Below are positions 4,253 through 27,088 of a stretch of 37,274 nt of DNA, piece after piece. The DNA comes from Patescibacteria group bacterium (GTDB lineage Bacteria > Patescibacteriota > Patescibacteriia > 2-12-FULL-60-25), in contig JAKLEH010000007.1 of assembly GCA_022703155.1 (NCBI GenBank), forward strand, positions 1 through 37,274, written 5' to 3'. The notes below the pieces were generated by a model, which ran no database searches, was not told the DNA's origin, and worked only from the letters and a program-made list of their open reading frames with translations. Every line of letters begins with the position of its first letter. Position 1 is the first letter of the stretch. The position numbers and the translations under genes are program-made.

Positions 4253-7207
4253 TTACGCACTTCCACTCACCAACTTGGCCCGAAGCTTTTCGCTTATTTT
4301 GCGGGCGTCGTCGGTACTCACATCTACCTTGATCATTTGCTCACGAGCCGATTGGAATTTCGTACCCTTCAAGCCAGCCGCGTCGTCTTTTTGGGCGCGT
4401 GAAATGATGTTCATCAGGCTAGTCTGTATCTTTTTCTGTTCTTCAGCGGTCCCAGCTTGCATGGCATTCAAAATCGCCGCTCTATCCATGGCGCCAACTG
4501 AATCCGCCACCTGCTCAAACGCTTTGCCCTTGGTGCCAGCTTGGCTTACCATGCCCGCAAAAGCGCTTGCCGTTTCCGACCTGATACCGCCAGAGCTCAT
4601 CTGCGCAGTCAATTCGGTGCGCAAATTATTAAGCGCCAACTTATGCGAGATTTCACTGTTACGATCCTGAAAATCACCGCTATTCGCATCGTATCCGAAT
4701 AGCGCCTTAGTCGAAACATGTGCCGCGTACTTTTGCGCCATTTGTGCGCGATGCCTAATTTGCTCTGATTGCGTTTTGCCAGCAAAACCCTTGAGATCGG
4801 CCTCGAAATCCCGAGCCACGCTAATCGGCAATTCGCGCCCTATGTCACCAACAGTAACTGCGCCTCCACCGGCCACGTTTCCCAGATTACCGACGTTGCT
4901 CTTGATACTCGCGGCCACGCCCGGTTCCACCGCCTTCACGTTACGTAGGACCGCTTCCGGATCGCTGGTGGTGCGGTCATAACGACCTTGGGCCAAAGCG
5001 GCAGCACCAGATACCACGCCCCATGATTCATTATCCTTTGAAACCTGCAATGTATAATTGTCTTTTGCGGTGGCGGTTCCCGTGATAAGCCTTTGTGCTC
5101 TCGCCTGATTTTCGGGATTCTGACGCGCATATTCCAAATGCCCCTTAGCCAGTTTGCCTTGACGACCACGCATGAAAGTCTTGTAATCAGAATCGTTTTC
5201 CACACCCACATTCAGCTCACCGACGTCGTTGATCCAACCCTTGCCCTTCATGTAATTCAACGCGAACTCTCCATCCATGAAAGCGTCATCCTGAATTTTG
5301 CTCAAAGCTTGCGGATCTGAGGCCAGCTTGGCGGCCATCTCGCGCTTCTTGCTTACGCCTTTATCATCAACCCCCATAAAGTGCGCCGGGTTCTTTTCGC
5401 GCGCCTCATTTATTTCCTTCAACAAATCCGTATCGTTCCTGGCAACCGCAGCATTCTCCAAACCTGATAAAGTCGCGGCAATCTCGGAATTAACCATGTG
5501 TCGCGCAGCCGCGTCCTTCTGTTCCTTGGTCGCGTTTTTCCATGGCGACTTGTCGGCGTCCATCTCTTCACGAACACGCTTGGTCCGTTCTTTCTGATAC
5601 GGAGACCCGGTCACTAGTTTCGCCTGCATGGTATTGGCGGCCATCACTTCGGCCTGCGTGGCAAACGTCGAGCCTTTGACCTTGTTCAGCATCTTCATCT
5701 GATCCTCGGGCGCCATCATGCCAATAGCCTTCTTGAATTCACCTTCCTTCTCGACCGCTTCACGTTTGTGGAACGTCGAGGCCTTGGCCAAACCCGTGCG
5801 CATGCCCATGGTCATAGGCATGCCGCTGACTGCCATTTTGCCGGCCAATTTCGCGCCGATTCCGGTTTGCCGTTCCACGGCCATGGCACCCTTGCCCACC
5901 GCCGCGCCCCCATATCTTGCAGTGATGGCGCCCAAGGCCGCGCCAGCGCCAAACATACCACCGGCTTCGCCGACCTTACCCACCAAACCGCCGATTTGCG
6001 GCACGGCCTCTCTGGCCATGCTTACGGCAGTCTGCACGCCCATGAGCATGAAGGCGATCATGACGATGAACTGCGCAAGCTTATCCGGCGCACCGATTTT
6101 GGTGATGACCACATTTTTGCCGGTTGCGCTAGCCTGCGTAGTTTCGCTGCTTTTGGAAGGTGAATATAAGGAACTGACTGTGCCGTTGTCTTGCGCCATG
6201 GCGAGCGCCAACCACAAAAAGAAAGCCATGATGGGTCCGCCGACCAAGGCCGAAGACAGCCGCTTCCACCAGTCGCTGGCGAAAGCGGAAAAAGCCTTTT
6301 GCATCTTTCCGGGCAAAGCCCATGCGAAAAACATGACCGGCGACGTGATGAGCAACATCCAGAGCACGATGATGCGGGCCAAAAAGAAGATGATCATGAT
6401 GATCAGCAGCGTCATGGAGATGGACATGATCCATAACGCAAAAACCGACGCCGCGAAAATCGAAACCATGGTCAAAGGAGTGACTTCGGATACGTCGCTC
6501 CAACCGATTACGATTTTGCCGCCTTCCTCTTTGACCACTTGGTCGCCACCCTCATTCAACTTCATGATGTTTCCGATCTGCAAGGCTTGGATGAAGTTGT
6601 TGCCGGCTATCTGTTTAAATCCGTTGACGAACGTCAGCACGATAACCTGCGAAAAATCTATCATCAGGCCGATCAATGTTTTTGAAAAATTGATGAGCAC
6701 GGCCATGAGCAGCAGCTTTGGCAGAACGCTCTTGTAGTGGAAATCCTTATAACCCACGATGGTGGAAAAAGCCGAAACCAACACCACGATGATGAAGAAC
6801 ATGTTCACCGTGTCGCGCATGATGGGCCAACCGACGGACACGGGATAGGCTTTCACGAAATTGTTGTACTGCGTGATGCTGACCAAGAAATCCACCAAAA
6901 TAAGGATGAAGAAGCCTAAAATTTCGCACAACACCAAAACGAGACTTGTCAAAAGACCCATCACGATATTCACGAAAGTGTCGATGAAACCTTCAGCGGA
7001 CGCGGGAACCGCCACAACGAATACCGCCAGGAACGCCACCGCGAGCCCGGCTAAAGCCAACTTGCGCCGGCGGCGCCTCATCAACAAAAGCGGATCTTCA
7101 ATAATTTTTTTAGTGCGGTTTTTGGGGAAAAAAACCTGACGCAAAAACCTAAACGGCGACCCGCCGGCTCCTGGTTCACCCTCGCCCCAAAATATCCTCC
7201 TATACAT
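4253..7207 (-). CDS. VirB6/TrbL-like polytopic membrane protein with large soluble C-terminal region
   Basis: A 984-residue protein with a basic N-terminus (RRRRRK at about 44-49), a first hydrophobic segment ending in an Ala-x-Ala-like site (VVAVPASAEG), and about six to eight further membrane segments between residues 75 and 430 (for example FFIIVVLVSAFSTIVGY, LLLMAVLINFSKTLIGLMI, LLIIMIIFFLARIIVLWMLL). A soluble, Ala/Lys-rich region of about 550 residues follows. This layout, with SPVMFFAWALPGKMQKAFSAF after the central membrane block, matches VirB6/TrbL-type channel proteins. It is the first gene of the T4SS-like operon and ends 7 nt before the next ATG. ATG 7207 lies 7 nt after a TGcTACAAT -10 element; an alternative start is Met43 at 7081, directly before the signal-like segment. 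The soluble tail has no motif I recognise. Confidence 0.75.
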   Translation of the reverse strand: MYRRIFWGEGEPGAGGSPFRFLRQVFFPKNRTKKIIEDPLLLMRRRRRKLALAGLAVAFLAVFVVAVPASAEGFIDTFVNIVMGLLTSLVLVLCEILGFFILILVDFLVSITQYNNFVKAYPVSVGWPIMRDTVNMFFIIVVLVSAFSTIVGYKDFHYKSVLPKLLLMAVLINFSKTLIGLMIDFSQVIVLTFVNGFKQIAGNNFIQALQIGNIMKLNEGGDQVVKEEGGKIVIGWSDVSEVTPLTMVSIFAASVFALWIMSISMTLLIIMIIFFLARIIVLWMLLITSPVMFFAWALPGKMQKAFSAFASDWWKRLSSALVGGPIMAFFLWLALAMAQDNGTVSSLYSPSKSSETTQASATGKNVVITKIGAPDKLAQFIVMIAFMLMGVQTAVSMAREAVPQIGGLVGKVGEAGGMFGAGAALGAITARYGGAAVGKGAMAVERQTGIGAKLAGKMAVSGMPMTMGMRTGLAKASTFHKREAVEKEGEFKKAIGMMAPEDQMKMLNKVKGSTFATQAEVMAANTMQAKLVTGSPYQKERTKRVREEMDADKSPWKNATKEQKDAAARHMVNSEIAATLSGLENAAVARNDTDLLKEINEAREKNPAHFMGVDDKGVSKKREMAAKLASDPQALSKIQDDAFMDGEFALNYMKGKGWINDVGELNVGVENDSDYKTFMRGRQGKLAKGHLEYARQNPENQARAQRLITGTATAKDNYTLQVSKDNESWGVVSGAAALAQGRYDRTTSDPEAVLRNVKAVEPGVAASIKSNVGNLGNVAGGGAVTVGDIGRELPISVARDFEADLKGFAGKTQSEQIRHRAQMAQKYAAHVSTKALFGYDANSGDFQDRNSEISHKLALNNLRTELTAQMSSGGIRSETASAFAGMVSQAGTKGKAFEQVADSVGAMDRAAILNAMQAGTAEEQKKIQTSLMNIISRAQKDDAAGLKGTKFQSAREQMIKVDVSTDDARKISEKLRAKLVSGSA

Positions 7208-15181: not shown

Positions 15182-17845
15182 TCACCCCGTCTTCTCCTTA
15201 CCCTTATTGGCCCAAGCGTCCAACCTCTTGATCGTATCGTCCCACATGTGGCTGACGGCGTCGCCGAACGTCTTGGCCTTCATGAAGCTCCCCAAAAACC
15301 AACCCACGCCCTTGGCGATACCGCGGAATGCCTTAAATACCGGCAAGCCCACCGCGGCCCCAACCATGGCCCCGCCCCACATCCCCCGCTTCAACAAACC
15401 GGGCTTGGCGCCTTCTTCTTTCTTTGCGGTTTGGGCTTCGGCCCGTGTTTGCGACGTGGATTGGACCGTGGCTGTTTCAATGGCGCTCTCTGCTTGTTCG
15501 GCCTGTTCGATGCGTTCATTGGCCTTGGCCAATAAAGCCTTTTCCGCGGTTTCAGTCTGCGCATTCAACTCTTCGACCTTACGCTGTTCCATGAGCATGT
15601 CGTTTTCCTGACGTTTCAGTTTTTGCATTTCAAGGGATTCGGCGCCCGTGGCTTCGAGCGCCTTCATCTTGGCCCGGACGACCTTCAAATGCTCATTCAA
15701 TTGCATCAGTTGATGTTCGCCGCCCAGGGCTTGTAAACGCAACTGTTTGAAAGCCTGCTTTTCGGTGAACGGCGCGTCGGGGCTTTGGTCGGACGACAAC
15801 GCCTCCCATTGCGATTTGGTCCATTTGACGCCATAACCCAAATATTGGTCGTTCCACGTGTTGAGATCAAAATTTTCCAACGCGTCGAATTTCGCCTCTA
15901 AGGATTTCAAACCTTGTTCAGCGTTTTCGCGCGCGCTTTCCACGCCCTTCAGTTCCCTTTCGGCCACGAGTTGTTCGGGCGTGACCGCCGATTCGAGCGG
16001 GGCTTCGATGGCGGCCCTGGCCGCCGCCTCGTCTTTGCGGCGCTGGTCCAACGCCTTTTCTTGCAGGCCTTTATTCGACTCCAACGCGCCGGCGAGCTTG
16101 GTGATTTCGTCGCCAAACGAACCGGCCACGTCCGGATTGGCCTTCAAATGTTCGGACAGGTTTTTGAGCATCTCGCCCAATTTGTCGATGTGTTGTTGGC
16201 GCTCCTCGATGCTTTCTGACGATGAATATTGCGCCAAATCGGCCAAGCCTTGGACTATTTCGCGGCCTTTGTCCATCTTCTCTTTGCGGATGGCGCGTTT
16301 CTCCTCCATGGAAAGAGTCTTGGCCTTGTCCTCGGTCCTGACCGTAGGCGCGGCTTCGGCGACCATGGCAGCAGCCGCGGCTTCGGTAGTGCCGGATACG
16401 ACCGTGTTCGCTTCGGTGGCCGGGACAGATTCGGGTTGCGTCGACGGAACCGGCTGTTCCATAACCAATGTACCATTCGGACCCAATGACGGCGCCTGCT
16501 CCGACCGCATGCGCAACGTACCCTTGGCCGTGTAATCCGGCAATCTGGTGGTGACGGCCTGGTTTTCAGGGATTGTTCGCGGGGCTTCTGACGTAGGCTG
16601 CGTCGCGGGTGCGCTTTCCGGACCGACCCCGAGCAGCGTACCCGTAACCGCGCGTTCGGTGGATGCGGGAGGCGCTTCGGAAGCCGGCACCACGCCAATC
16701 AGCGTACCGGTCTTTTCCGTAGCCGGAACGCTTTCCGGTCCCACGCCAACCAATGTCGCGGATCGTTCGGTGGACGCCATGGGTTCGGTCGCGGGAGCGG
16801 CTTCGACCGCGGTCGGCGCTTCCGAAGTCGGTTGGGTTGCGGGCGCGTTTTCTAAAACAAAATCTTGACGCAAAGTGGTTCGTGAAGATGGCGCGGTTTC
16901 GGCCACGGTAACAGACGCGGTTTCGGCGGTTTTGGCCATGGGCGTGGAGGGCAAAGTGGCAGGACCTTCAACGGCTTGCGGAGCCGTCGCTTCGACTCCG
17001 GCGCTGCGCATAGTCGACACGCCTTCGCTTCGCATGGTTTTGACGGCTTCCGCAGAAACAGCTTGAACCACCGACGGAGTTTCCATCCTCACGGATTCGG
17101 CCAAAGGCGAAACCTGGGCTTGCGGTCTTTCGGTCGCCGCCATGCCGACCAAGGTTTCCCCGCCGGTTTGTGTGGCTGGCGCTTCGACGGACAACGCCTG
17201 CATCCTGACGATTCTGGAGGTGGGTATTTTTTCGGTTGACGGTTGCGTCGGGGCCGGCGCCTCGGCCGCAGACGCTTTTGGTTTGACCGCGCTGGAAAGC
17301 GAATCCAATTCGTACTTTACGACCAAATTCTTTTCGTCCTGACCCAACACCGTACGACCCAATTCTTTCTGCAGCATGTCCAGGTCCACGGCTTGCGGCG
17401 ACGACAGCCCTTGCTCCATAGTCAACTTGCTCATGGCGACCGCGATTTTTTCCGCCGTCACGGGATTGGCTTCCGTCTCGTCAGCCAGGATGGCTTCTTG
17501 CGCTTCCGCCGCGGACGCTTCGGCTGACTCGATCGCTGGCGCCTCTGGTGCTCCGGCGACCTCTTTGATTCTTACCCCGCTGGTCTGCGCCAATTCTTCC
17601 AGCTGAGTCTTGGCCTTCTCGGTCACCGGTCCAGCGACTTCCAATTTTGACAAAGGGCTTTCCGTCAGGGCCTGTTCCTTTTGGCCACGGACACCTTCCA
17701 GGACCTTCAAAGCGTCTTCAGCACTGACGAATCTGAACACCTCCGCGACTTTGGCGGTTTTTTCCTTTTGTCGTTCCGCGGCTTCGGCTTGTGCCGCCTG
17801 CTCTTGGACGAGCGGTTTGGCCAATTGGGCTTCGTTGGTCGACAT
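15182..17845 (-). CDS. Unrecognised 887-residue low-complexity protein with TL-x-G-V repeats and C-terminal hydrophobic segment
   Basis: I do not recognise a family. Residues 1-190 are acidic, Ala/Glu-rich and helical. Residues about 190-500 are Pro/Ala/Thr/Ser-rich and disordered-looking, with repeats of the form TL-[V/I/L]-G-[V/M] (ETLVGMA, ATLVGVGPES, GTLIGVVPAS, GTLLGVGPES) and related GTLRM and GTLVM, many followed by PATxPTSEAP. Residues about 500-820 are charged coiled coil (AIRKEKMDKGREIVQGL; LEMQKLKRQENDMLMEQRK). Near the end, a Gly-rich hydrophobic stretch (about 828-865, MVGAAVGLPVFKAF and GVGWFLGSF) suggests a membrane anchor, then a basic tail. It has a near-consensus promoter and is divergent from the 219-residue gene. 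A structural or adaptor role at the membrane is only a guess. Confidence 0.8.
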   Translation of the reverse strand: MSTNEAQLAKPLVQEQAAQAEAAERQKEKTAKVAEVFRFVSAEDALKVLEGVRGQKEQALTESPLSKLEVAGPVTEKAKTQLEELAQTSGVRIKEVAGAPEAPAIESAEASAAEAQEAILADETEANPVTAEKIAVAMSKLTMEQGLSSPQAVDLDMLQKELGRTVLGQDEKNLVVKYELDSLSSAVKPKASAAEAPAPTQPSTEKIPTSRIVRMQALSVEAPATQTGGETLVGMAATERPQAQVSPLAESVRMETPSVVQAVSAEAVKTMRSEGVSTMRSAGVEATAPQAVEGPATLPSTPMAKTAETASVTVAETAPSSRTTLRQDFVLENAPATQPTSEAPTAVEAAPATEPMASTERSATLVGVGPESVPATEKTGTLIGVVPASEAPPASTERAVTGTLLGVGPESAPATQPTSEAPRTIPENQAVTTRLPDYTAKGTLRMRSEQAPSLGPNGTLVMEQPVPSTQPESVPATEANTVVSGTTEAAAAAMVAEAAPTVRTEDKAKTLSMEEKRAIRKEKMDKGREIVQGLADLAQYSSSESIEERQQHIDKLGEMLKNLSEHLKANPDVAGSFGDEITKLAGALESNKGLQEKALDQRRKDEAAARAAIEAPLESAVTPEQLVAERELKGVESARENAEQGLKSLEAKFDALENFDLNTWNDQYLGYGVKWTKSQWEALSSDQSPDAPFTEKQAFKQLRLQALGGEHQLMQLNEHLKVVRAKMKALEATGAESLEMQKLKRQENDMLMEQRKVEELNAQTETAEKALLAKANERIEQAEQAESAIETATVQSTSQTRAEAQTAKKEEGAKPGLLKRGMWGGAMVGAAVGLPVFKAFRGIAKGVGWFLGSFMKAKTFGDAVSHMWDDTIKRLDAWANKGKEKTG

Positions 17846-24223: not shown

Positions 24224-24299
24224 CGCGGGGTAGAGCAGTTGGCAGCTCGCCAGGCCCATAACCTGGAGGTCGTGGGTTCAAGTCCCACCCCCGCAACCA
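24224..24299 (+). tRNA. Initiator tRNA-fMet (CAT), with C33
   Basis: Acceptor CGCGGGG/CCCCGCA leaves the C1-A72 mismatch diagnostic of bacterial initiators; the D-stem has A11-U24 (GAGC/GCTC). The T-arm is GTGGG TTCAAGT CCCAC and CCA is encoded (24297-24299). The anticodon arm is CCAGG CCCATAA CCTGG: the loop has C at position 33 where U is nearly universal, and the usual three G-C pairs (29-31/39-41) are reduced to two, with A29-U41. Both differences come directly from the sequence. The rest matches initiator tRNAs closely. Confidence 0.95.
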
Positions 24300-25375: not shown

Positions 25376-25452
25376 GGCGGGGTAGCTCAGTTGGTTAGAG
25401 CGTGGGACTCATAAGCCCGAGGTCGAGGGTTCAAATCCCTCCCCCGCTACCA
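25376..25452 (+). tRNA. tRNA-Met (CAT), elongator type
   Basis: Acceptor GGCGGGG/CCCCGCT (G1-U72 wobble), D-arm GCTC/GAGC, T-arm GAGGG TTCAAAT CCCTC, and encoded CCA (25450-25452). The loop is CTCATAA, anticodon CAT. The anticodon stem TGGGA/GCCCG has three G-C pairs, a U-G pair at 27-43 and an A-G mismatch at 31-39. A CAT anticodon could also be tRNA-Ile2 (lysidine-modified), but the acceptor has G4-C69 and G5-C68 rather than the C4-G69 and C5-G68 pairs described for TilS recognition, so Met is preferred. Confidence 0.85.
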
Positions 25453-26815: not shown

Positions 26816-27088
26816 ATGAAAGCCGCCAAAAAAATCCCGACATGGCACGCATACATCTTGCGCTGTGCCGACGGTTCTTTGTATACGGGCATAACCACAA
26901 ATCTCTTGCGTCGCAAAACGATGCATGACACGGGCAAAGCCTCAAAATACACGCGTTCGCGTTTGCCGGTCGAGATGGTGTGGCGCGAGCGCTGCAAAAA
27001 CGAATCCGCGGCGCGCAAATTGGAAATCAAAATCAAAAAAATGTCTCGGGCCAGCAAGCTCGCATTGATAAAACCGGAAGCTGGATAA
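26816..27088 (+). CDS. GIY-YIG domain protein (UPF0213/YhbQ-like)
   Basis: A 90-residue single-domain protein of the GIY-YIG nuclease fold. The GIY-equivalent is AYI (12-14), the YIG-equivalent is YTG (23-25), and it has the conserved Arg pair (Arg32/Arg33), His37 and Glu70 (RKLEIKIKK), so the active site looks complete. Members are implicated in DNA repair or exonuclease activity, but most are uncharacterised. It ends 3 nt from the convergent HD gene with no room for a terminator. Confidence 0.88.
   Translation: MKAAKKIPTWHAYILRCADGSLYTGITTNLLRRKTMHDTGKASKYTRSRLPVEMVWRERCKNESAARKLEIKIKKMSRASKLALIKPEAG

Follow-up and report, generated by a model that had tools for sequence, protein, structure and literature searches.

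The anticodon loop of the metazoan initiator tRNA reads CCCAUAA. Certain mycoplasmas are said to possess unconventional initiators with an AU/GC/GC anticodon stem, and some of these reportedly accompany changes in IF3 and uS9; C33 is reportedly not part of their description. The presence of C33 in the metazoan cytoplasmic initiator tRNA-Met is documented (PMC9023262), and initiators have been named among the exceptions to U33 (PMC11096365). In the literature searched, which comprised for the most part papers accessible without a subscription, we found clade-wide C33 nowhere described for bacterial initiators.

An initiator tRNA gene with C33

The gene described here (Table 1) was found in a window of 37,274 nucleotides, a term used below for the whole stretch of DNA that was analysed. 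ARAGORN and Rfam agree exactly on its boundaries and identity, tRNA-Met(CAU), and its cloverleaf is intact. Its acceptor stem (CGCGGGG..CCCCGCA) lacks a Watson-Crick pair at 1-72, where C1 is opposed to A72, a mismatch also marked in the Rfam alignment. The D stem (GAGC/GCTC) contains the purine-pyrimidine pair A11-U24, the anticodon stem keeps G30-C40 and G31-C39, and A37 as well as A73, followed by an encoded CCA, are present. All these features are shared with the canonical bacterial tRNA-fMet. Two are not: C33 stands in the place of U33, and A29-U41 (positions 24252 and 24264) in the place of G29-C41, so that two of the three G-C pairs that mark initiators (29-41, 30-40, 31-39) are retained. 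Because the 29-41 pair is variable in this phylum, membership as a bacterial initiator rests on the other marks. The locus encodes a bona fide bacterial initiator tRNA with C33. Judging from its sequence, the product is likely to be a functional formylmethionine initiator tRNA that is ordinary apart from the change of U33 to C.

Table 1. Positions in the window of the initiator tRNA gene, its relevant parts and the elongator tRNA-Met gene.
Feature	Position	Strand	Basis
Initiator tRNA-fMet gene, CCA encoded	24224..24299	+	ARAGORN; Rfam RF00005, 61.5 bits; C1·A72 and A11-U24 from sequence
Anticodon arm CCAGG-CCCATAA-CCTGG	24250..24266	+	Sequence, Rfam alignment
C33 (usual base U33)	24256	+	Sequence; conserved across the genus and family and in most of the class
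Elongator tRNA-Met(CAU), U33	25376..25452	+	ARAGORN; Rfam, 68.7 bits

With the metazoan initiator the gene shares C33 and the loop around it, and differs from it in a bacterial acceptor end (C1·A72) and a normal T-loop; the likeness is a case of convergence, not of descent. The resemblance to the unconventional initiators of mycoplasmas lies in the A29-U41 pair next to two retained G-C pairs.

Two side observations concern other tRNAs encoded in this genome. In the anticodon stem of the elongator tRNA-Met (GGGA-CTCATAA-GCCC), A31 is opposed to G39, a feature common to several relatives (L086, L087, L088 and L097). Two very different tRNA-His(GTG) genes are also found (L024, C23:6875-6949, and L028, C31:6498-6568), one of which may be additional or of foreign origin.

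Distribution of C33 among bacterial initiators

The CCCATAA loop is found in all nine genomes sampled in the genus and in nearly all genomes of the family, where the U33 exceptions seen belong to a single genus (g19). When the class was scanned using an initiator pattern that accepted C or U at position 33, matches were obtained in 299 of 381 genomes, and the remaining 82 matched no initiator pattern. Our class figures for base 33 and for pair 29-41 are based on the 149 matches listed from those 299 genomes; among these, C33 was found in 118 and U33 in 31. When the pattern required a purine at position 33 instead, it gave zero matches in these 381 genomes. In a sample of 287 genomes from the phylum, C33 was detected in 17 of the 22 class members and in 9 of the 265 genomes outside the class; U33, the usual state there, was detected in 141 of the latter, and 115 matched no pattern. 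C33 is heritable, as comparison across related genomes makes clear, and extends to the genus, nearly the whole family and most of the class. The simplest reading of these sequences is that U33 would be ancestral in the phylum and that the class acquired C33 close to its base.

Two peculiarities were observed in relatives. One member of the genus (G005) harbors, besides its own C33 initiator, a second CAU tRNA (C10:5693-5727) with an initiator-like loop, U33 and C29-G41. In another member of the class, a group I intron-like element (L138; G044 contig 37, 247-445, minus strand; RF00028, 46.2 bits, just under the gathering score) adjoins a T-arm-like tRNA 3' end.

C33 initiators are also found in unrelated bacteria. 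They were sought in one genome per species across 84,980 species using a pattern that required the D-arm GGTAGCTCG; such a scan misses the GGCAGCTCG type, to which the initiator under study belongs, and yields no frequencies. The matches listed include Weissella, Leuconostoc, Convivina, Periweissella, Fructilactobacillus, Erysipelotrichaceae and other Bacilli, Christensenella, Elusimicrobia, Omnitrophota, Phycisphaerales, Lentisphaeria, Saccharibacteria, Azambacteria, Stahlbacteria and Vermiphilus. Nearly all listed records were typed by ARAGORN as tRNA-Met(CAU) with a C33 loop. Every initiator copy detected in the whole genomes of W. confusa, W. minor and W. halotolerans has C33. When any base was allowed at position 33 in 251 Lactobacillaceae genomes, the matches listed contained C or U only, and C33 was present in several separate groups among them. 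On the sequences compared, C33 is a minority state in bacterial initiators that has arisen repeatedly. The first-pass annotation had considered this base unusual in bacteria, a view that holds insofar as C33 belongs to a minority but is overstated, as it recurs in many lineages from several phyla.

Base 33 and pair 29-41 in the P site

In an archaeal initiation complex, with contacts stated likewise for bacteria, the C-terminal arginine of uS9 binds phosphates 32, 33 and 35 (PMC7005279), and G1338 and A1339 engage pairs 29-41 and 30-40 by A-minor contacts (PMC7005279; see also PMC5037330). G30 has been named the most crucial base, and no demand for the base U33 itself was seen among the P-site contacts described there (PMC7005279). 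A eukaryotic U34-modifying enzyme needs U33 (PMC11096365), a requirement that is irrelevant here because the tRNA under study has C34.

In our opinion, C33 is probably tolerated through a relaxed constraint at position 33 and has been fixed by descent. The initiator enters the P site directly, unlike elongators, and the demand for U33 that elongators face in the A site would therefore relax to a demand for a pyrimidine. The P site touches position 33 via its phosphate, and the choice of the initiator depends mainly on G30-C40 and C1·A72. C33 would have arisen early in the class and become fixed by descent, with occasional reversion to U33, and it would have appeared separately in other bacterial lineages and in the initiators of metazoans. 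This explanation presumes that C33 preserves a U-turn-like bend of the loop, is nearly neutral and stays unedited in the transcript.

Tolerance is consistent with several observations. The host genome (1,234,304 bases, 55 contigs, 97.9% complete), probably a reduced one of the Patescibacteria type, contains 42 tRNA genes, all of which could be typed: U33 is present in 41 of them, and C33 is confined to the initiator. The lack of purines at position 33, both in the 381 class genomes and among the listed Lactobacillaceae matches, points in the same direction, as do the recurrence of C33 in several phyla and the P-site partners, which are alike in C33 and U33 relatives (see below). F. lindneri has one C33 copy and one U33 copy of the initiator gene, as expected if both work. 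Against neutrality stand the near-fixation of C33 across the class, with few reversions, and a co-occurrence of U33 with U29-A41, described below. Both observations hint that more than neutrality may be involved.

An alternative is that C33 is a selected tuning: an altered turn of the loop would shift P-site affinity for the initiator or its discrimination there, in coupling with the 29-41 pair that G1338 and A1339 read from the minor groove. Besides the near-fixation of C33, and the fact that several phyla have converged on the identical loop CCCATAA, the distribution of pair 29-41 argues in its favor. Among the 149 class matches listed, 79 have A29-U41, 52 G29-C41, 17 U29-A41 and one C29-G41. 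U29-A41 is accompanied by U33 in 16 of its 17 occurrences, and the other pairs are accompanied by C33 in 117 of 132; the association yields a Fisher p of 4e-12 in these listed matches, a value inflated by shared ancestry. Furthermore, bases 33 and 29-41 switch together inside three families (f1, f156 and f23). Counterexamples exist, however: C33 is combined with U29-A41 in Saccharibacteria and in one class member (G386), and outside the class U33 occurs with all three pairs among the phylum matches listed. No matching change was seen in uS9, IF3 or 16S rRNA (see below). Altogether, we consider selected tuning rather unlikely, and we regard the coupling between base 33 and pair 29-41 as a lead, not a result. 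Also unlikely is a broader formulation, in which base 33 of bacterial initiators acts as a switch with two states, C and U but no purine, is functionally coupled to the 29-41 pair that 16S G1338/A1339 read, and by way of C33 tunes P-site acceptance in a large class and in lactic acid bacteria.

A strict link between C33 and A29-U41 was discarded, as C33 frequently accompanies G29-C41 in the class and U33 frequently accompanies A29-U41 in the rest of the phylum. A29-U41 is a common variant separate from C33. The weakened anticodon-stem signature to which attention had initially been drawn is real in the sense that the A29-U41 pair is there; its importance was overstated, since U33 initiators of the phylum often have this pair as well.

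Start machinery, remaining alternatives and implications

The first-pass annotation had considered an altered start apparatus conceivable, in association with apparent leaderless initiation. We examined the P-site partners of the initiator, numbering 16S rRNA with E. coli rrsB as ruler. The uS9 protein of the genome ends in PQWSKR, and its relatives end in SKR, AKR or QKR irrespective of whether they have C33 or U33. In IF3 of the genome, the residue at E. coli position 131 is R; K is found at this position in one C33 relative (G043) and in two U33 relatives (G045 and G054). R133 is kept in all the IF3 proteins compared, and other substitutions are common to the C33 and U33 groups. All 42 genomes with a 16S match have G1338 and A1339. 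In short, no differences between C33 and U33 relatives were seen in the uS9 tail, IF3 or 16S G1338/A1339. Coupling of C33 to changes in any of these was accordingly rejected, and the partners checked, being alike in both groups, give no support to a start apparatus altered together with C33. Where it could be checked (uS9 tail, IF3, 16S), the start machinery appears otherwise ordinary. Unlike the mycoplasma systems said to have changes in IF3 and uS9, the genome combines A29-U41 with an intact SKR tail and R131, without the substitutions at either site.

Near G1338/A1339, the 16S rRNA of the genome (L334, C45:6690-6715) reads GGAUU at E. coli positions 1337-1341, which amounts to an A1340U change. 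Almost every member of family f1 that was sampled has the change (G023 lacks it, and G031 has one copy of each kind), and it is absent from the other families of the class. As A1340U also occurs in U33 members of f1, and C33 families outside f1 keep A1340, the change is not linked to C33.

The impression of SD-poor and perhaps leaderless starts in the window was reasonable. An SD-like 4-mer is found at 4 of 25 chosen starts, equal to background (15%), and a TANNNT box lies at most 20 nt upstream of 11 of 23 starts; shuffled sequences give 6.6, and 16 of 500 of them reach 11. These figures suggest that mRNAs of the window may be leaderless. Examples of SD-poor starts with −10-like boxes are 4253-7207 (−), 15182-17845 (−) and 26816-27088 (+).

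The idea that C33 and A29-U41 belong to a start apparatus adapted to leaderless mRNAs, for which the scarcity of SD motifs and the excess of TANNNT boxes in the window speak, is nevertheless very unlikely. The anti-SD of 16S rRNA (GGATCACCTCCTTT) is intact in the genome, and the P-site partners are unchanged. In addition, SD-like motifs were found in 10% of 20 ORFs from U33 class relatives, and in 54% (Lactobacillaceae) and 47% (Elusimicrobia) of ORFs at C33 loci, a comparison made on small samples with crudely chosen start codons. Since U33 relatives are equally SD-poor and C33 Lactobacillaceae often have SD motifs, C33 is not tied to leaderless starts: within the limits of these samples, SD content does not follow base 33, and the proposed link between C33 and leaderless initiation lacks support. 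C33 is not the marker of SD-poor, perhaps leaderless starts.

Editing of the transcript from C33 to U33, which would render the working tRNA canonical, seems highly improbable. C-to-U editing of tRNAs exists in some organelles; we know of none at position 33 in bacteria, and several unrelated lineages would each need it.

The suspicion that the C33 gene might be an assembly error, a pseudogene or a spare copy can be dismissed, as the same base is found in independent genomes of the genus (every one sampled), the family and the class, the cloverleaf is intact in the Rfam alignment, and a DNA search of the 55-contig, 97.9%-complete genome found no second initiator gene, canonical or otherwise.

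Tolerance of C33 through relaxed constraint in the P site remains the explanation that we favor. U33 has been treated as nearly invariant; C33 initiators recur in bacteria. In tRNA annotation, such genes should not be thrown out as damaged. Culturable Weissella and Leuconostoc, together with Fructilactobacillus and its two initiator copies, make the role of U33 in the P site versus the A site directly testable.
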